From Limnochorda pilosa (GTDB taxonomy: Bacteria; Bacillota; Limnochordia; Limnochordales; Limnochordaceae): a DNA stretch of 64,000 nt. Positions 1,489 through 10,998 of this stretch are shown one piece after another; within the stretch, counting starts at the first letter, position 1; each line of letters begins with the position of its first letter. Under the pieces are notes generated by a model. That model saw nothing but the letters and a program-made list of their open reading frames with translations. It was not told the origin of the DNA and ran no database searches. Location of the stretch: assembly GCF_001544015.1 (NCBI RefSeq), contig NZ_AP014924.1, positions 1,302,001-1,366,000 of the forward strand. The letters run 5' to 3'. The position numbers were made by a program, and so were the translations under genes.

Positions 1489-1959
1489 TGACTCGCGACA
1501 GAACTCTTTCCTCACGCCCGGTTCGTCCTGGACTACTACCACCTGTCCGAACACGTATATCGAGCGGCGGAGGAGATCTTCGGAAAGGAGAACCCTGAAG
1601 GCAAAGCCTGGGCGAAACAGGTGAGCGAAGCGCTCCTGCGCAAGGGCAAGATCGACGAGGCGTTGCAGGCCATTCGAGATCTGCCGGCTCGCGGCCGGGC
1701 GGCCCGGGAGGAGCGGCGGAAGCTGTTGGCCTACGTGGAGAACCACCGCGACAAGATGATCTACCCTGAGCTTGAAGCCCAAGGCCTGCCGATAGGGAGC
1801 GGCGCGGTGGAGAGCGGGTGCAAGCGGGTGGTTGGGAAGCGTCACAAGCAGGCGGGGATGCGCTGGAGCCGACCTGGGGTGGGCGCCATGCTCAGCTTAG
1901 CCGCCTTCCGCTACAGCAGGCGGTGGGACGCCTTCTGGACGGCAAAGCGGGCTGCCTGA
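1489..1959 (+). pseudogene. ISKra4-type transposase remnant, 5' truncated
   Basis: In-frame remnant of about 156 codons with stops in the same frame at 1465 and 1486, so no complete gene can be read. The visible part includes FVLDYYHLSEHVYRAAEEIF, then LPIGSGAVESGCKRVV and KQAGMRWSRPGVGAMLSL near the end, the C-terminal region of ISKra4-family transposases. A start codon at 1621 would give a 112-residue fragment, but homology continues upstream of it. It is inactive as a transposase and abuts another transposase fragment directly downstream. Confidence 0.7.
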
Positions 1960-2306
1960 CCCCCTACGTTTCTGGCGTACACCCCTTTTACAATCAGCGC
2001 TGCACCGCCGAGAACGGGATCAAGGAGCTGAAGGAGGGACTCGGCATCGACTCCATCGGCAAGGAGACCTTCTGGCCCAATGCGGCGGACCTGCTGATCA
2101 AGGGGATCGCCTACAACCTCCTGCTCCGGCTCAAGGCGCTGGCCCCGGCGCCCTATCGCCACTACACCGCGACCCGCCTGCAACGGACCCTGCTGCGGGT
2201 GCCGGTCCTGGTGGTGCGCCATGCCCGGCGGCTGATCCTCCGGCTTCCAGCGCTGTGGCCGCACCGAGCTGCATGGCAGGCCATCCGGCTTGCACTGAGC
2301 ACGTAG
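1960..2306 (+). pseudogene. IS1380-type transposase remnant, C-terminal end
   Basis: C-terminal fragment of about 115 codons with FYNQRCTAENGIKELKEG, then LLIKGIAYNLLLRLK and VPVLVVRHARRLILRLP. This is the characteristic end of IS1380-family DDE transposases. It begins in a different frame right where the ISKra4-like fragment stops, so the junction near 1960 marks an insertion or deletion that fused two dead elements. No start codon or catalytic residues from the front of the protein are present. Confidence 0.75.
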
Positions 2307-2633
2307 CGTACCCGGAACGCCGTGGGCAAGGAGCGGAGGCCACCAGTAGGGGCGGGTGGCCCAGGCAGCTGCGCCCTTCTGGCGCCTCCCGAGCCGTTGC
2401 TCACGCCGTTTCGCCCACCTCTGTGCGTCGTCCACGCCTCTCATCACGGCGATTCCGGGCTCACATTTCCAACGTGTCCTACCAATTGTCGTCAACCGTG
2501 TTCCATTCCTTGCGATCCTCTGTTCGGTTCGCGTCCGTCGAAGGGACGCATGCGAAATCCGGGCTGAAGCCACCGTGACGGCGTCCCAACCTCCAGCTCC
2601 GTCCATCCAGGCCATACCAGCGGCATGCTGACG
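2307..2633. other. Non-coding tail behind the IS1380 remnant
   Basis: About 330 bases without a convincing gene; the short open frames here do not resemble proteins. Around 2548-2572 lies ATGCGAAATCCGGGCTGAAG, placed where a terminal inverted repeat of the IS1380 remnant would be expected. I cannot confirm it without the matching left end, which is lost. The stretch also holds the downstream side of the convergent DUF4279 gene. No clear terminator stem was seen. Confidence 0.3.
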
Positions 2634-3080
2634 CTAGTCGTCGGCCTCGTCCTCATCCACGCGGACCATCCCCCATGAGAAGACGGAGACGGTTATGGAG
2701 ACACCGGTTTCGGAAAGGAACGCCATGACGTCTGGGGGTATCTGAAACGTACCCTGCGCATAGTCGGTGACATAGCTACACCACACGGTTACTGACCAGT
2801 CCTGCGCCATACGTTTCAGAACTGCCTGTCTCGGCCTTAGGTCGGAGACAAGCGCGCGAAGGTGTGTTTCCATCGGACGGTCGGTAGGGACCGGAACGGT
2901 ATACCTCCATACATTGGTCACGGCCCTTACCCCACCCGGACCGACGGTTCCTTCTTTCGTGAAGCGGGTAGGAGCTAAGGACAGTTGACTTGTCACCCAG
3001 TCACCGTCAAGTCCGCTGCCAGCGACACGGAGTGCCGCTCTCTGCAAGATGCCTTCATCATGATGCCTCGGGGTGGTCAC
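2634..3080 (-). CDS. DUF4279-domain protein, candidate immunity partner of the RHS protein
   Basis: 148 residues. The pattern fits DUF4279: an N-terminal strand-helix (AALRVAGSGLDGDWVTSQL), a middle VWRYTVPVP strand, and a C-terminal end with IPPDVMAFLSETGVSITVSV. I placed the start at GTG 3080 because GGAGGG lies six bases upstream and the codon shares one base with the RHS stop (TAGTG). The frame is open 16 codons further upstream, but inside the RHS gene. Translational coupling directly behind a polymorphic-toxin-like protein is the usual position of an immunity protein; that function is inferred. Two 60-base lines counted (2701-2820) are 52-57% GC, below the surrounding genes. Confidence 0.75.
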   Translation of the reverse strand: MTTPRHHDEGILQRAALRVAGSGLDGDWVTSQLSLAPTRFTKEGTVGPGGVRAVTNVWRYTVPVPTDRPMETHLRALVSDLRPRQAVLKRMAQDWSVTVWCSYVTDYAQGTFQIPPDVMAFLSETGVSITVSVFSWGMVRVDEDEADD

Positions 3081-6000
3081 TAGTATCCCTCCAGAAACTG
3101 ACGGGCCAGTGCTTCTAGCTGCTTCCAAGTCAGGTCGCGGCCGCCCGTTATGTCGTCTTTCATCTCTTCGATGAAATCACCGAATGCTCGACGCTGCTCT
3201 GGCGTCATCTTGAACTTACGAGCGACCTGCTCAACCTGACGGATGTCGCCTTTCTTCGCGAACATCTGTAGATTGATGCGTGATGAAGATGCCCCCGTTC
3301 CAGACAGCCTCGATTGAATCCAGGAGTACACTCGCACTGCCACACCCGCGGCTGCGCCGGAAGAGGCGACTTGGATGCCGGTCGCTGCGCCGATAACAAA
3401 CAGCGTGGGAGTCAGCCAATCCGCCCTTACCGAGTCATTGCTGAGGTCGTACCCCTGGGGGTAGCTCTCGGTCCGCGGTAGTAGTATCTCCTGGCCTGGG
3501 TAGATAAGGTCGGGATCCCGAAGGGCGAACGGTTGCATGCGCACTATTTCCGTATATAGAGACGCATCACCGTAGACTTTTCGTGCAATGCCAGAAAGGG
3601 TGTCTCCAGGTTCGACGGTACCCCACTGCCCCGAGGGATCGACCTTGAAGAGGCCCAGCGGATCGACGAGGGCCGTTGGCCTGTTGTCAACGTACACGTA
3701 CCAGTTCAACCCATCCCTCACCAGGTCCTGGCTGGCCCACCGCCCCACCTCCGGGTCGTACCAGCGCGCCCCGAAGTAGTAGAGCCCCGTCTTCGGGTCG
3801 TACTCCTTCCCCGTGAAGGCGTAGCGGTTGTACGGGCCCATCACCCCCGCCCAGACCTGCCCGAAGACCTCGTAGGAGTACTGCACCACCACCTCGCCCT
3901 TGCGGTCCGTGAGCGCCTGCACGCTCCCCAGAGCATCCGTGTGGTAGAAGAGCAGTCCTCCCCGGGTCCTGAGGAACTCCTCGTTCCCCGGCGCCTTCCG
4001 CCCGTGAAAGCCGAACATCTTCCTGGCGAGGAGCTGCCCGTTCGCGCGGTAGTACTCCGCCAGGGGCGGAAGACCCTCCCCCGGGGTCCCCGCGTACTCC
4101 ATCAGCACGTCGAGGCCGTCGTAGAGGTAGTGGGTGATCTCGGTCTTCTGCTTCTGTGCGTTCTGCCAGTAGCTCTCCTCCCGGTAGACCCGCCTCCCGA
4201 AGGCGTCGTAGGCATAGCGCACCCAGGTGCCGTCGGGGAAGTCGACCCGGGTCAGCTGATTCCTCGAGTCGTAGGTGTAGCGGATCGTTTTCTCCTGGTC
4301 CGCCCGCTCGACCACGTTGCCGTTGGCGTCGTACCGGTAGGTGACCACACCCGCACGGAGCAGGCGGTTGAGGGTGCCGTAGGTGTAGGGGAGGATCCCC
4401 GCATCGGTCTGCAGCGTGAGCCGGTTGCCCACCCGGTCGTAGGTGTAGCTCGCCCGTGCGAAGGGATCCGGCCAGGAGACGGCGCCTCCCGGGTCGTCCG
4501 GCCTGCCGCCCCCGGGCTTCCCTCCCTGGCCCGGAGGTTCGCTGGGAGGCTGCCTGCCCTCCGAGGTCCCAGGCGCCTGCGGGATGGCCTCCACCACCTC
4601 ACCTTCCGGCAGGGAGGGCACGCGGGTAGGTGGAACCGGGAGGGTCGGAGCGAGCGGGTATGAGGTCGCGCCTTGCGACAGGCCCTTCCCCGGAGGGAAC
4701 GTCCCGTCCTGCCAGGCCCGGATCGCCTCGATCGCCTCCAGGGGGTACTCCACCCGCACCAGGCGGTCCAAGAGGTCGTAGGCGTAGCGGGAGACGGCCC
4801 CGCCTCCCTCCCCCCGCTCCAGGGGGTTGCCCACCGCGTCGTAGCGGTACGTGTAGCGGAGGATCTCCTCGAAGGGGCTCCCGGTCACGAGGCTCGCGAG
4901 CCTGCCCGCGACGTCGTAGCCGTACCGCGTCTCCACCTGGTTCGGATGCCGCACCCGCTCCAACCTCGCCAGGGCGTCGTAGGAGAACTCGAACCGCTGC
5001 CCTTCGGAACCCGTGAACTGCTCGAGCCGCCCCAGGGGGTTGTACGCGTACCTGAAGACCCGTCCCTCCGGGTCGGTGAGGCTGGTGCGGAGCCCCCTCG
5101 CGTCGTAGGTGGTCCTGAGGGTCTTGTTGAGGGTGAGGTTCTGCACCTCGATGAGCCGCCCCATCGCGTCGTAGGCATACCGCTCGCTGAGGGCCGGGTT
5201 CGAGGCTAGAGTCATGCGGCCGGCCGCGTCGTAGGCGAAGCGCACCGTCTCGTCCGGGTAGACGATCTCGGTGAGCAACCCTCGGGCATCGTAGGCGAAG
5301 CGGGTGGTGCGCCCGGCCAGATCGGTCCGGGTGGCGACGTTGCCGAGAGGGTCGTAGGTGTAGCGGATCCGCCCCTGAGGCGACTCCTCCTCCACGAGCT
5401 GCCCCGCCGCGTCGTAGGTCCAGCGGAAGAGGTTGCCGCCTGGGTCCACGCGACGGATCAGCCGGCCAAGAGGATCGTACTCGTACTCCATCACCCCGCC
5501 GGAGGGGTCCTCGACGCGGACCGGCCGGCCCGACGGGTCGTAGGCCAGCTCCGTGCTCCTTCCCAGCGCATCGGTGAGCTCCCTGAGCCTGCCGAGCTCG
5601 TCGTACGCGTAGCGGGTCTTCTCCCCGGCCGGGTTGGTCGCCCGGGTCAGCCGGCCGGCCGCGTCGTACGCGTAGCGGAAGGTCCGATTCAGAGGGTCGG
5701 TCGCCGCCAGGAGCTTGCCCCCGGCGTCGTACTGGAAGCGTTGAACCTGTCCAAGGGGATCCGTGTATTGCACGACCCGCCCGAAGGGATCGTAGGACCA
5801 GGTGTAGACCGCCCCGGAGGGGTCCACGTACGAGAGGACGTGCCCATCGGCATCGTACGTGTAGCGGTGCTCGGCCCCTGTCGGCTCCTGTACCCGGAGC
5901 ACGCGCCCCAGGCCGTCGTACTCGAGGCGGGTGGTCTTCCCGAGAGGATCGGTCATGGTGAGGAGGTGGCCCAGACCGTCGTAGGTGAAGCGAGTGACCG

Positions 6001-7807
6001 CCCCTGAAGGATCCGTGATGGACGTGACGTTCCCGTGCGCGTCGTAGGCAAACTCCGTCGTCTGTCCCTTGGAATTCGTGACGCCGCGAAGGAGGCCGCG
6101 GGTGTCGTAGGAGTACGTCGTGGTCCGGTTCAGCGGATCGGAGAGGCCGACCAGATTGCCCCGCCCGTCGTAGGTCATGCGGGTGCGGTTTCCAAGGGGG
6201 TCGACGATCTCGGTGAGCCTGTTGAAGCCGGGCTCGTACTGAAACCGGTACACCTCGCCCGACCGGCCGGTGAGCTCCACCACGTTCTTCTTCCCGTCGT
6301 ACCTTGCCCGCGTCACCGCCCCGGTGGGATCGACCGTTCGAATGCGGTTGAAGCCTTCGTCGTACTCGTACTGGGTTACCTTGCCCAGGGGGTCCCGCTT
6401 CGAGGTCAGGTGGCCCTCGGCATCGAAGACATAGACCGTCGTTCCGCCTCTCGGGTCGGTGTACTCGGTGCGGTAGCCGCTGCCGCGCTGGTAGGTGAAG
6501 CGGTTGTAGAGAGAGCCATCCGGCGCGACGACCTCGACCACCCGGCCCTCGGCGTCGTACCGGTAGCTCATGCTGAAGCCGCGCGGGCCCGTGTAGCGGG
6601 TGAGGCGACCCTCCTCATCGTACTGGAAACGCCAGCGGCTCCCGATCGGGTTGATCACCTCCTTCAGGCGCCCTCTTTCATCGTAATCGTACTGCAGCCG
6701 CCTGCCGGCCGGGTCCCTGAGCTCCACCAGGAGAGACCCCTCGTAGGTGAGGTGGTACTTCCGGCCCGCTGTATCGACGATCTCCGTGAGCCGCCCCTGG
6801 CCGTCGTAGTGAAAGGCCAGGCGATTGCCGTTGGAATCGGTGATGTCCATCAGCCTGCCCGCCGTCGGCGACTGGTTGCTTCCCCGCCAGCGGGCCCAGT
6901 AACCGGCGTACCGGTACGCGATGCCGTCCTTCGTCCGCTCCGTGTACGTCCCGTCGGGGTTGCGGGCGAGGGTGTTGGAGTTGAGGACCGACGACTCGAA
7001 GTACCCGCGGTCCAGCCTGATCTCGATCAACGGGTCGCCGTCGAAGGAGCTCACCGGCACCTCGGGGTCCGGCACGAATCGGTAGTGCAGGCGGCGTCCC
7101 TGGCCGTCCCGGACGTCCATGGAGTAGTTCCAGTTCATCGTCAGCGTTCGATGGTACGTGTGGGTCCACTTCGCGCCGAGAGGCCCATCGACCGGTGAAT
7201 TGGACGCGTACGTCCGCGCGAACGAGAAGGGGAGACCGGCCCCCGGAACGGTGAGGTCCGTTTGGGTCAGGATGTACTCCCCCGTCAGGGGGTTGACCGG
7301 ATCGCCTGACAGGTCGTGGTTTCCTTGCTCACCCGACTCTTCCACGAGCTCTCCGGCCTCGTTACCAGGCTCTTGAGGTACGCTGCCGTCATCCTTGGTG
7401 CCGGTTCCGGCACGCCGCTCTGTGTTGTCTGTAAAGTCGTCGTTGTCGTCATCAACATCCTGCGAATCGGGGATACCGTCGCCGTCCGCATCCGGCGGCG
7501 GGGGCTCACCATCATCGTCGTCACCATCGTCCCCACCATCGTCGCCATCATCGTCGGCCTCGTCCCCATCATCGCCCTCATTACCGTCGCCGTCGTCCCC
7601 GGGATCCTCCCCGGTACCAGGATCCTCTTGATCCCCGGTATCGCCTTGGCCGCTGTCGTCTGATCCACCCTCACCCGGATCAAACGAAACCGGGGGATCC
7701 GCATGTACGGGTGAAACCTGCGCAACGCCAACCACGACAACCAGAACAATAACGAGCAAGATGATCGCAGTATGAATCAGCGTGCGGCCTCGGCAGGTGA
7801 TAGTCAT
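3080..7807 (-). CDS. RHS/YD-repeat protein with signal peptide, acidic linker, LysM domain and variable tip
   Basis: 1575 residues. The start is ATG 7807, eight bases after AGGAGGT; the frame is open 14 codons further upstream without a ribosome site. Order of parts: a signal peptide with a long hydrophobic core ending VSPVHA; an Asp/Gly-rich linker with a thrombospondin-3-like DADGDGIPDSQDVDDDND; a DUF6531-like entry (DPVNPLTGEYILTQTDL); some thirty YD repeats; the conserved RHS core end (FTGKEYDPKTGLYYFGARWY) and DPLGL; a LysM domain near residues 1396-1445 (VEPGDTLSGIARKVYG, IYPGQEILLP); a short hydrophobic segment; INLQMFA; and a final ~60-residue tip. RHS shells of this kind encapsulate toxic C-termini. 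The tip family is unknown to me, so toxin activity is inferred. It follows a secretin gene by 73 bases; a 7-bp hairpin (CGCTTTC/GAAAGCG, 7837-7866) lies in that gap. Confidence 0.9.
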   Translation of the reverse strand: MTITCRGRTLIHTAIILLVIVLVVVVGVAQVSPVHADPPVSFDPGEGGSDDSGQGDTGDQEDPGTGEDPGDDGDGNEGDDGDEADDDGDDGGDDGDDDDGEPPPPDADGDGIPDSQDVDDDNDDFTDNTERRAGTGTKDDGSVPQEPGNEAGELVEESGEQGNHDLSGDPVNPLTGEYILTQTDLTVPGAGLPFSFARTYASNSPVDGPLGAKWTHTYHRTLTMNWNYSMDVRDGQGRRLHYRFVPDPEVPVSSFDGDPLIEIRLDRGYFESSVLNSNTLARNPDGTYTERTKDGIAYRYAGYWARWRGSNQSPTAGRLMDITDSNGNRLAFHYDGQGRLTEIVDTAGRKYHLTYEGSLLVELRDPAGRRLQYDYDERGRLKEVINPIGSRWRFQYDEEGRLTRYTGPRGFSMSYRYDAEGRVVEVVAPDGSLYNRFTYQRGSGYRTEYTDPRGGTTVYVFDAEGHLTSKRDPLGKVTQYEYDEGFNRIRTVDPTGAVTRARYDGKKNVVELTGRSGEVYRFQYEPGFNRLTEIVDPLGNRTRMTYDGRGNLVGLSDPLNRTTTYSYDTRGLLRGVTNSKGQTTEFAYDAHGNVTSITDPSGAVTRFTYDGLGHLLTMTDPLGKTTRLEYDGLGRVLRVQEPTGAEHRYTYDADGHVLSYVDPSGAVYTWSYDPFGRVVQYTDPLGQVQRFQYDAGGKLLAATDPLNRTFRYAYDAAGRLTRATNPAGEKTRYAYDELGRLRELTDALGRSTELAYDPSGRPVRVEDPSGGVMEYEYDPLGRLIRRVDPGGNLFRWTYDAAGQLVEEESPQGRIRYTYDPLGNVATRTDLAGRTTRFAYDARGLLTEIVYPDETVRFAYDAAGRMTLASNPALSERYAYDAMGRLIEVQNLTLNKTLRTTYDARGLRTSLTDPEGRVFRYAYNPLGRLEQFTGSEGQRFEFSYDALARLERVRHPNQVETRYGYDVAGRLASLVTGSPFEEILRYTYRYDAVGNPLERGEGGGAVSRYAYDLLDRLVRVEYPLEAIEAIRAWQDGTFPPGKGLSQGATSYPLAPTLPVPPTRVPSLPEGEVVEAIPQAPGTSEGRQPPSEPPGQGGKPGGGRPDDPGGAVSWPDPFARASYTYDRVGNRLTLQTDAGILPYTYGTLNRLLRAGVVTYRYDANGNVVERADQEKTIRYTYDSRNQLTRVDFPDGTWVRYAYDAFGRRVYREESYWQNAQKQKTEITHYLYDGLDVLMEYAGTPGEGLPPLAEYYRANGQLLARKMFGFHGRKAPGNEEFLRTRGGLLFYHTDALGSVQALTDRKGEVVVQYSYEVFGQVWAGVMGPYNRYAFTGKEYDPKTGLYYFGARWYDPEVGRWASQDLVRDGLNWYVYVDNRPTALVDPLGLFKVDPSGQWGTVEPGDTLSGIARKVYGDASLYTEIVRMQPFALRDPDLIYPGQEILLPRTESYPQGYDLSNDSVRADWLTPTLFVIGAATGIQVASSGAAAGVAVRVYSWIQSRLSGTGASSSRINLQMFAKKGDIRQVEQVARKFKMTPEQRRAFGDFIEEMKDDITGGRDLTWKQLEALARQFLEGY

Positions 7808-7880
7808 CGAGTAGGACCTCCTCCCTAGACGTGCCGCGCTTTCGACCACCCACAGGAATGAAAGCGAAAGATGAGCCAGC

Positions 7881-9227
7881 CTACTGGATCAGGTAAGGCG
7901 TCACAATGATGAACAACTCGGTCTCCTTGGCCTCGCTCCGGAAGTTGGTGAAGAGGGCCCCGAGGTACGGGATGTCGCCCAGGAGGGGGATCTTATCCCG
8001 GTGCTCGATCTCCCGTCGTTCCAAGAGGCCGCCGATGACGATGGTCTCGCCCGAGCGGACCCGGATGGTCGTCTCCGCCTCCCGGCTGCTGGTGGTCGGG
8101 TAGCCTTCGGAGGTCGTTCCCGTGATGGACGTCACGTCGGTCTTGATCTCGGTGGTGATCTCCCCATCCCCGTTGTGACGCGGGGTGATCGAGAGGGTGA
8201 TGCCGGCCACGATGTCCTGCTTCACCCGGAAGGCCTGGTCTCCACTTGTCTGGGTGACGAAGACGGGGAAGCGCTCCTCGGTCCGCACAAGGGCGGGGAT
8301 GCCGTCCACCGTGGCCACCCGGGGGTTGGCCAGGACCTGGGCCTTGCCCTCACCCTTGAGGAGATCCAGGGTGGCCATGATCTCCACGGGCGTACGAACG
8401 AAGGGCTGGAGCGGCAAAGGAATCGTCCCGTAGTACTGGCTCTCCTCCCGGAAACGGACGGAGAGCGACGCGCTCACGTTCAACCCCAGGTGCGAGGCGG
8501 CATCGGCATGAATCTCGACGATCTGCGCGTCGATGAGGATCTGATCGCCCGGCCGGTCCAGCTCCTCCGCCAGGCGGCGGATGTCCTCGAAGCGGTCCAT
8601 GGAACTGTCGAGAATGAGGCGGTTCAGCCGCTCATCCACCTGAATGACGGTGTCGCCGTACGGGACGAGCCGGCGCAGGGTGGAGGCGAGGTCCCCAGCG
8701 TCTGCGTAACGAAGGGAGAGAGTCTGAAAACCTCCCTCCGGGAGAGAAGCTTCGGTGGGCTTCACCGTGGCCTCCGGCGTCAGGGCGATCTGGATCCGCC
8801 GGCCGTCGGGCGCTACGAACCCCTGCTGGTGGGCGGGGCCGGCCAGACGAAGGCGAATGTGCGTAGTTGCCCCTGGCAACCCCTTTGCGGGAACCACGGT
8901 CACCGAAGCCTCTTCCACGTAGCGGCTCTCGCCGGTGGCCACCAGCGGCTCCTCGGCTGGGCGGGTACGTGGGAGGGAGAGGGTGAGCTCGTTCCGTTCC
9001 GGTCCCGAGATGACCTGGTAGAAGAAGAGGCGCTGCCCAAAGATCTCAACCCAACGATCCCGGTACGTGACGCGTTCCACAACGCCCTCGCGGGCGACGG
9101 CCTCCCATGGGAAGTCCGGAGCAGCGCCTGCGGTGACGGGAGGTACGAAGAGGATCAGGAAGAATGCTGTGGCCGCGAGGAGCAGACGTCGGAGACGGTC
9201 ATGCCCGCGACGGTGTATTCTCGCCAC
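7881..9227 (-). CDS. Secretin (GspD/PilQ-type outer-membrane channel)
   Basis: 448 residues from the preferred start. There is a basic N-terminus and signal peptide (LLLAATAFFLILFVPPVTAGA), an N-terminal beta-rich part that could be AMIN-like, an N1-type ring domain (ADAGDLASTLRRLVPYG, ILDSSMDRFEDIRRLAEELD), and the secretin barrel domain with GKAQVLANPRVATVDG and a C-terminal VRSGETIVIGGLLE, IPLLGDIPYLGALF. Start choice: GTG 9227 gives a normal signal peptide. An in-frame ATG at 9347 has a better ribosome site but adds 40 residues whose codon use looks non-coding. Secretins oligomerise in an outer membrane. No other type II or type IV pilus genes are near; it is first in a line with the RHS protein and DUF4279. 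Confidence 0.88.
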   Translation of the reverse strand: MARIHRRGHDRLRRLLLAATAFFLILFVPPVTAGAAPDFPWEAVAREGVVERVTYRDRWVEIFGQRLFFYQVISGPERNELTLSLPRTRPAEEPLVATGESRYVEEASVTVVPAKGLPGATTHIRLRLAGPAHQQGFVAPDGRRIQIALTPEATVKPTEASLPEGGFQTLSLRYADAGDLASTLRRLVPYGDTVIQVDERLNRLILDSSMDRFEDIRRLAEELDRPGDQILIDAQIVEIHADAASHLGLNVSASLSVRFREESQYYGTIPLPLQPFVRTPVEIMATLDLLKGEGKAQVLANPRVATVDGIPALVRTEERFPVFVTQTSGDQAFRVKQDIVAGITLSITPRHNGDGEITTEIKTDVTSITGTTSEGYPTTSSREAETTIRVRSGETIVIGGLLERREIEHRDKIPLLGDIPYLGALFTNFRSEAKETELFIIVTPYLIQ

Positions 9228-9361
9228 GATGGATCCATGACCGCAAAGGTGTCCAGCGGCGATACTGCCCAACTTGGGGTGGATTCTGCGGCCGTCCCAT
9301 TCCCCAGAGGGACGGACCGGGTGACCCCGATCCCGTCGAGGACCCATGGCTTCAGCTCCAT
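9155..9361 (-). CDS. Possible small ORF overlapping the secretin start
   Basis: 68 codons from ATG 9361 (GGGGA eight bases upstream) to a stop at 9155, inside the secretin signal-peptide region. In 9228-9346, about 31 of 40 third codon positions in this frame are G or C, against about 24 of 40 in the secretin frame. This hints that this frame, not the extended secretin frame, was under coding selection there. The predicted product (MELKPWVLDGIGVTRSVPLG...) resembles nothing I know. It may be spurious. Confidence 0.2.
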   Translation of the reverse strand: MELKPWVLDGIGVTRSVPLGNGTAAESTPSWAVSPLDTFAVMDPSWREYTVAGMTVSDVCSSRPQHSS

Positions 9362-9771: not shown

Positions 9772-10998
9772 TTGGCCGTCTTGCTCGAGAGCCCATCGGA
9801 GCCCCGCCCCGTCCCCGGAGGGCTCGACGCCGTCCGGGGCATCCAGGCCGCCGGGGTTCACTGCGGCATCAAGGGCCGGAACCCGGACCTGGCCGTGGTG
9901 GTGACCCATCCGCCGGCAGTGGCCGCGGGAACCTTCACCACGAACCGGGTGCAGGCAGCACCCGTGGTGGTCTCGCGGGAGCACCTGGCCCGGGGTGGCC
10001 TGGTGCGGGCCATCGTGGTCAACTCAGGCATCGCCAACGCCTGCACCGGCGAGCAGGGCCTGGCCGACGCCCGTCGCATGGCGGCCGTGCTGGCCGAGAG
10101 GCTGGGGGCGGCGCCCCAGGAGGTTCTGGTGGCCTCCACGGGCGTGATCGGCCAGAGCCTTCCCATGGAGAAGGTGGAGGCGGGGATCCAGGCGGCCGTG
10201 GAGCAAGTGCGGGCCGGGGGCGGGGCCGACGCGGCCCGGGCCATCTGCACCACCGACACCCGCATCAAGCAGGCAGCGGTGAAGGTCTCCTTGCGGGGCG
10301 GCACCGTCCGGGTGGGCGGCATGGCCAAGGGCTCGGGCATGATCCACCCCAACATGGCCACCATGCTGGCCTTCGTGGCCACTGACGCCGCGGTGGAGCG
10401 GGAGTGGCTCGAGGAGCGGTGGCGCCGGTCGGTGGCGGCCAGCTACAACCGGATCACCGTGGACGGCGACACCTCCACCAACGACATGGCCCTGGTGCTG
10501 GCCAACGGTGCCTCCGGCGTGCGGCCCGACGGCCCCGGGGAGGAGGCCCTGCTGGGCGAGGCGCTGGACCAGGTGAACCTGGAGCTGGCCCGGATGATCG
10601 CCGCCGACGGAGAAGGGGCCAGCCACCTGATGGTGGTGCGGGTCACGGGCGCGGCCAGCCCCGAGGAGGCGGACCGCTGCGCCCGCACCATCGCCGCCTC
10701 GCCGCTGGTGAAGACGGCGGTGGCCGGGCGCGACCCGAACTGGGGCAGGATCCTGGCGGCCGCGGGGCGAAGCGGCGTTACCCTGGACCCGTCCCGCCTG
10801 GACCTCTGGATCGGCGGGGTACAGGTGGCCGCGGGGGGCGCCGGGCGGAAGGGCGCCGAAGAGGCCGCCCGGGCGCGCATGGAGCCCTTCGAGGTCGAGA
10901 TCCGGCTGGACCTGGGCTCAGGCCCCCACGAGGGGCTGGCCTTCGGCTGCGATCTGACCGAGGGCTACGTGCGGATCAACGCGGAGTACCGCAGCTAG
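9772..10998 (+). CDS. argJ: Bifunctional ornithine acetyltransferase / N-acetylglutamate synthase
   Basis: 408 residues. It transfers the acetyl group from N-acetylornithine to glutamate (and may use acetyl-CoA), the recycling step of arginine synthesis. Family features: GIQAAGVHCGIKG at the front, FTTNRVQAAPV, and the autocleavage site HPNMATMLAF with Thr197 as the nucleophile that separates alpha and beta chains. The GRDPNWGRILAAAGRS motif is intact. TTG 9772 is taken as start, with GAGGAGG seven bases upstream; no nearer ATG or GTG fits. It is the first gene of argJ-argB-argD-carB-argG-argH. No argC or argA is visible beside it. Confidence 0.95.
   Translation: MAVLLESPSEPRPVPGGLDAVRGIQAAGVHCGIKGRNPDLAVVVTHPPAVAAGTFTTNRVQAAPVVVSREHLARGGLVRAIVVNSGIANACTGEQGLADARRMAAVLAERLGAAPQEVLVASTGVIGQSLPMEKVEAGIQAAVEQVRAGGGADAARAICTTDTRIKQAAVKVSLRGGTVRVGGMAKGSGMIHPNMATMLAFVATDAAVEREWLEERWRRSVAASYNRITVDGDTSTNDMALVLANGASGVRPDGPGEEALLGEALDQVNLELARMIAADGEGASHLMVVRVTGAASPEEADRCARTIAASPLVKTAVAGRDPNWGRILAAAGRSGVTLDPSRLDLWIGGVQVAAGGAGRKGAEEAARARMEPFEVEIRLDLGSGPHEGLAFGCDLTEGYVRINAEYRS

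Follow-up and report, generated by a model that had tools for sequence, protein, structure and literature searches.

The locus described here raises the question of how a large toxin of the RHS (rearrangement hotspot) type may cross the outer membrane, and of whether a secretin can act as its exporter without the rest of a secretion machine. Secretins are known as parts of larger assemblies: type II and type III secretion systems (T2SS, T3SS), type IV pili (T4P), Tad systems and filamentous phages. In a stretch of 64,000 nucleotides from Limnochorda pilosa (contig NZ_AP014924.1, positions 1,302,001 to 1,366,000; hereafter the window), a secretin gene is followed on the minus strand by a gap of 73 bases, a gene for an RHS/LysM protein and a DUF4279 gene. 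We consider it probable, taking the reading as a whole, that the secretin is a dedicated, stand-alone exporter of the Sec-delivered RHS polymorphic toxin encoded beside it, and the secretin-RHS linkage itself is almost certainly real and functional. The unit comprises (positions in the window):

7881..9227, minus strand: secretin of 448 amino acids (GTG start at 9227, stop ending at 7881; a longer open reading frame starts at 9347), consisting of a signal peptide, an N-terminal domain without Pfam family (about residues 36-150), Secretin_N and Secretin.
7808..7880, minus strand: secretin-RHS junction of 73 bases with a strong ribosome-binding site; an accessory gene occupies the corresponding place in a second copy of the locus in this genome and in genome G219.
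3080..7807, minus strand: RHS polymorphic toxin of 1575 amino acids (ATG 7807, stop 3082-3080).
2634..3080, minus strand: DUF4279 gene of 148 amino acids (GTG 3080, stop ending at 2634), predicted immunity protein of the toxin tip.

This three-gene layout was given by the first-pass annotation with its 73-base gap, two signal peptides and one shared base, and is exact to the base. The final G of the RHS stop TAG doubles as the first base of the DUF4279 GTG (a 1-base overlap at 3080), GGGAGGAGGTCC lies upstream of the RHS start ATG 7807, and no terminator-like site was found at either junction in a weak scan that gave no more sites than shuffled sequences. The secretin matches the Pfam families Secretin (1.5e-40) and Secretin_N (2.3e-11), and the DUF4279 gene matches PF14106 (4.3e-14), over the family cut-off.

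The genome is a single contig of 3.82 Mb, rated 99.95% complete, and the genome-wide statements made here are based on family searches. It encodes four secretins. The platform protein T2SSF had no match genome-wide, in a search that was positive in 13 of 14 control genomes, and the genome-wide matches to the T2SSE ATPase were all below the cut-off. Therefore, there is no recognisable type II system or pilus that the window secretin could serve in this organism, and the earlier remark that no other type II secretion or pilus genes are near holds for the whole genome. The best solved-structure (PDB) matches of the window secretin are GspD and PilQ; it stays far under the NCBIfam cut-offs for the full-length proteins (GspD 157.8 of 351; PilQ 149.1 of 284), and no Pfam match to the STN/N0 domain was obtained in it. 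Outer membranes have been seen in cultured Limnochordia, and the class is diderm (PMC11456536).

The pairing recurs in distant relatives. With adjacency defined as an RHS core at most 10 kb downstream of a secretin on the same strand, five pairs were observed and 0.56 expected in the 24 Bacillota genomes outside the class that hold both families (P ~3e-4, a rough Poisson figure, one of the five pairs, in G134, being a T2SS operon). The G134 case (L091, G134:C35), in which a piece of RHS follows a complete T2SS operon, was set aside, its secretin being an ordinary GspD outside the RHS-linked clade described below. The complete genome G219, of another class, carries a secretin, 16 bases, an accessory gene homologous to that of the second L. 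pilosa copy and, overlapping it, an RHS gene of 3015 amino acids, and G239 has a secretin, an accessory gene and a decayed RHS gene. A second type of locus, without accessory gene, occurs in G107, G125 (where the gap to the RHS gene holds masked bases) and G158, and G010 and G007 retain remnants of it; G012 contains a decayed relative of the window locus, and the order of secretin followed by signal-peptide RHS is also present in G314 and G148. The N-termini of the RHS partners that were examined are signal-peptide-like. No second example was found among 59 genomes of the class of G219, and two contig scans for relatives of the window secretin, which used eight-residue exact words as patterns and are weak evidence, gave none.

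Phylogeny of the secretins points in the same direction. A first tree, of 102 secretins, placed nine RHS-linked sequences in a clade of eleven (0.948). The remaining two, G314:C109 and G148:C84, each proved to have an RHS gene with signal peptide downstream, at a distance of 20 and 16 bases, respectively; both had gone unflagged, as their contigs stop short of the RHS core. The best matches of the window secretin among 72,556 plasmids are from Deinococcus wulumuqiensis NEB 479 (plasmid pDrdI, 40%) and D. gobiensis I-0 (plasmid P6, 35%), and both plasmid loci share a four-gene cluster for an RHS protein, an Ig-like protein, an S8 protease and a secretin; the Deinococcus RHS proteins have a signal-like N-terminus only when read upstream of the annotated start. 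When the Deinococcus sequences were included, in a tree of 106 secretins, a single clade held all RHS-linked secretins, and 13 of its 13 members are RHS-linked; nine of these had been picked for a nearby RHS gene and four without any RHS criterion (two predicted from the tree, two found by secretin similarity). Non-RHS secretins in the tree were classed by the positions of RHS-core matches, and the G012 remnant was too short to be placed. The window locus, in which a secretin of this clade adjoins a signal-peptide RHS gene, thus belongs to the proposed secretin-RHS module. With the G012 remnant, the RHS-linked set comes from nine families of Bacillota and from a second phylum, Deinococcota; its distribution does not follow species, which suggests that secretin and RHS gene were transferred as a unit.

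According to the first-pass annotation, the unit would be accidental if in relatives the secretin stayed among pilus genes and the RHS gene lay elsewhere. The opposite was found: the closest secretins by sequence, also those from other Bacillota classes and from Deinococcus plasmids, are RHS-linked.

Two further points concern the Deinococcus clusters. The S8 subtilase encoded between Ig-like protein and secretin (L171:9632-11635, L172:9592-11670) is a candidate protease for the RHS protein. The Ig-like protein was considered as a homologue of the Bacillota accessory protein, and this was rejected as homology is not established by the one match of 38 columns.

A second secretin-RHS locus lies at 1,473.9-1,485.5 kb of the L. 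pilosa genome. Its secretin is 84% identical to that of the window (dN, nonsynonymous divergence, 0.097; dS, synonymous divergence, 0.548), and the dN/dS ratio of 0.18 (NG86) or 0.06 (YN00) indicates that both copies are under selection, i.e. that purifying selection, as judged from these substitutions, maintains both secretins. The RHS cores of the two copies are 98% identical over 3.9 kb; the signal peptides, tips and downstream genes differ. In the second copy, the accessory gene starts 3 bases past the secretin stop and encodes a secreted protein of 365 residues with a carboxypeptidase regulatory-like domain (CarboxypepD_reg), and two partial RHS 3' ends lie downstream, one of which carries Tox-REase-7 and is followed by a HEAT-type gene. 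Polymorphic toxin loci that store tips are usually laid out in this way. The accessory gene of such fuller loci is missing from the window locus, where it has been lost. In the second copy, one and the same frameshift near the core occurs in both RHS 3' ends (G000 C1:1480120-1480220 and 1483497-1483597); the window copy has an open frame there. It could stem from gene conversion, phase variation or a sequencing slip. Furthermore, a short remnant of the N-terminal domain of the window secretin's family is present in the same genome at G000 C1:454326-454403 (L061), and a third copy of this family probably once existed there.

The RHS protein of the window has the architecture of a polymorphic toxin. 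Its Pfam matches are RHS_repeat (3.8e-158; 25 RHS repeats), DUF6531 and LysM (1e-6), and the RHS-associated core is recognised by TIGR03696 (1.4e-20). Its parts are:

7700..7807, minus strand: Sec signal peptide (to ...PVHA), with a 15-residue hydropathy of 3.71 and a cleavage point judged by eye.
7345..7699, minus strand: acidic Asp/Gly-rich linker with a DADGDGIPD-type repeat.
3650..3664, minus strand: DPLGL motif.
3476..3622, minus strand: LysM peptidoglycan-binding domain, on the tip side of DPLGL.
3083..3274, minus strand: C-terminal toxin tip of 64 amino acids without Pfam family, with 46% and 53% identity to RHS tips of two other Bacillota genera.
2501..3750, no strand: low-G+C stretch across tip and immunity gene, 0.57-0.59 as compared to 0.65-0.72 in most of the RHS core.

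DPLGL is the usual self-cleavage boundary in RHS shells, and beyond this conserved boundary the C-terminal tip is variable and exchanged between loci, as in RHS toxins. The low-G+C stretch is probably a recently acquired cassette; the tip and the immunity gene have no counterpart in the second copy. Pfam and PDB searches with the 64-residue tip gave nothing above chance, and no structural match was found for the DUF4279 protein. Among 399 Bacillota genomes, the tip has two good relatives, in G415 (46%) and G277 (53%). Each forms the end of an RHS protein, and the gene that overlaps it downstream matches DUF4279 over the cut-off. Within the stretches examined, no secretin is located beside either pair. 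Therefore, tip and DUF4279 form a cassette that is independent of the exporter, and from these sequence comparisons they appear as an exchangeable toxin-immunity cassette instead of a component of the export route. In Salmonella, DUF4279 was suggested to confer immunity to an Rhs toxin (PMC13304343). That tip and DUF4279 are a toxin-immunity pair is very likely, although killing by the tip and its neutralisation by DUF4279 are predicted from sequence.

The finding of the same tip with an overlapping DUF4279 gene in two other genera lends support to the cognate immunity that the first-pass annotation had proposed. Its three-gene unit needs revision: the secretin-RHS linkage is conserved, but DUF4279 goes with the tip cassette, and the conserved unit is secretin-(accessory)-RHS.

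In the mechanism that we propose, Sec would export both the secretin and the RHS protein to the periplasm, and the secretin would form a ring or channel of its own in the outer membrane, without a T2SS or T4P motor. The RHS protein would leave the periplasm through this channel, much as TpsA passes TpsB in two-partner secretion; the conserved linkage is an observation, the passage through the window secretin an inference. The RHS shell is expected to cut itself at DPxGL, and the released C-terminal fragment would combine a peptidoglycan-binding domain, LysM or another, with a small toxin, which would be delivered to neighbouring cells, with DUF4279 protecting the producer.

Several observations weigh against this mechanism. 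No energy source is known that could move a protein of 1500-3000 residues through a secretin, and the AlphaFold2 single-sequence models were unusable (mean pLDDT, the predicted local distance difference test score, 31.8 and 54.1). The clade support is 0.92, not 1, and 7 of the 13 clade members have a different secretin N-terminus and lack the accessory gene. In Deinococcus the RHS gene is divergent, with the S8 protease in between. Many loci are damaged: the second-copy RHS gene is frameshifted in its 3' part, the G239 secretin has an in-frame stop, the G158 secretin a frameshift and the G107 RHS gene a stop near its start, and only remnants are left in G007, G010 and G012. Damage is common in toxin loci.

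An alternative that we regard as unlikely is that the RHS protein stays periplasmic or wall-bound and that the secretin is a toxin-release pore through which the cleaved tip alone exits. The folded YD shell is, from what is known of the family, large for a secretin gate, and a peptidoglycan-binding domain adjoins the tip in the window RHS, the second copy and G012. However, this domain lies beyond DPxGL and would go with the released fragment, not with the shell, and RHS shells elsewhere act outside the cell. It is more doubtful still that the secretin belongs, or once belonged, to a T2SS or T4P, with other parts encoded elsewhere and the RHS protein as an incidental substrate. The C-terminal half of the secretin is 30-40% identical to other secretins, with GspD and PilQ as best PDB matches, and G134 has a full T2SS operon beside a piece of RHS; on the other hand, the G134 secretin lies outside the RHS-linked clade, the window secretin has no Pfam STN/N0 domain, and the genome has no T2SSF and no T2SSE over the cut-off. 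That secretin and RHS gene are chance neighbours joined by mobile DNA would fit the patchy distribution and the position of the unit amid transposon debris. It is nevertheless very improbable, and we rejected it, since linkage to RHS was found where the tree predicted it and in Deinococcus, adjacency exceeds expectation, all 13 clade members in two phyla are RHS-linked, four of them found without an RHS criterion, and both secretin copies are under purifying selection.

The dedicated secretin-RHS exporter that we favour resembles two-partner secretion (type Vb, TpsA/TpsB, including contact-dependent inhibition, CDI) in having a large Sec-exported toxin with an exchangeable C-terminal tip and immunity gene, located beside its own outer-membrane pore, with no motor found. 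In contrast, the pore here is a secretin and not a POTRA/Omp85 barrel, and the toxin stick is an RHS/YD shell and not a filamentous haemagglutinin helix with a TPS domain; neither POTRA/Omp85 nor TPS domains had a Pfam match in the window secretin or RHS protein. With GspD and PilQ, the window secretin shares the Secretin and Secretin_N domains, but the genome lacks GspE/PilB and GspF/PilC and the RHS-linked secretins form a separate clade. The YD repeats, RHS-associated core, DPxGL motif, swapped tips, downstream immunity and orphan 3' ends are those of RHS polymorphic toxins (Rhs of the type VI secretion system (T6SS), WapA, Rhs of the type VII secretion system). Unlike these, the proteins described here come with a secretin partner, and in fuller loci with a secreted CarboxypepD_reg accessory, instead of PAAR/VgrG, for which the window RHS gave no Pfam match, no search having been made for a T6SS elsewhere in the genome. 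As in the Rhs-Ntox33/DUF4279 pair of Salmonella pathogenicity island 19 (SPI-19; PMC13304343), a DUF4279 gene with proposed immunity function directly follows the toxin gene; the tip, here without Pfam family, and the delivery route are different.

No paper on such a pair turned up, at the level of titles and abstracts, in a literature search on secretins in combination with Rhs, polymorphic toxin, YD repeat, Deinococcus or Limnochorda, most subscription papers lying outside the search. This is in line with the earlier statement that no described system with this layout is known. The parts are of known kinds; the fixed secretin-RHS partnership and a motor-less secretin for one toxin class are undescribed in the literature found. 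We lean towards regarding this as a stand-alone secretion system, in which a motor-less secretin is dedicated to the neighbouring RHS toxin and which diderm Bacillota and Deinococcota inherit as one unit.

The unit is located among transposase remnants between argC and argJ, i.e. inside a split arg cluster, with as flanking features:

1818..2306, plus strand: transposase remnant flanking the unit.
9772..10998, plus strand: argJ, with argC across the mobile debris.

Elsewhere in the genome, another secretin cluster without T2SS or T4P genes (G000 C1:3003001-3022000; L058) is shared with four Limnochordales relatives (L064, L065, L066, L067). The order kept is response regulators, a secreted protein of 257 residues (YNPNGEALPPGA...), a protein of 560 residues (SPLLIELEGPPGS...), the secretin and a barrel-like protein, and this cluster is possibly another secretin system that works without a motor. 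Genes for an MMPL transporter, a LolA-like protein and a DUF1302 barrel lie immediately upstream of the third RHS gene in the genome (L057:4904-9343 = G000 C1:1534904-1539343), and also beside the secretin-RHS pair of G148 (L165:6814-11322).

The occurrence of the same secretin-RHS pairing in distant species, with little else shared around it, suggests an undescribed route for releasing weapons against other bacteria. With a secretin family that is bound to a single substrate class, in a genome without T2SS or T4P core, it can be tested directly whether a lone secretin is able to act as exporter, and the secretin clade is a marker with which more RHS toxins of this kind can be found. For bacteria whose RHS toxins have no linked T6SS carrier, such a family also offers an answer to the question of how these proteins get across the outer membrane.

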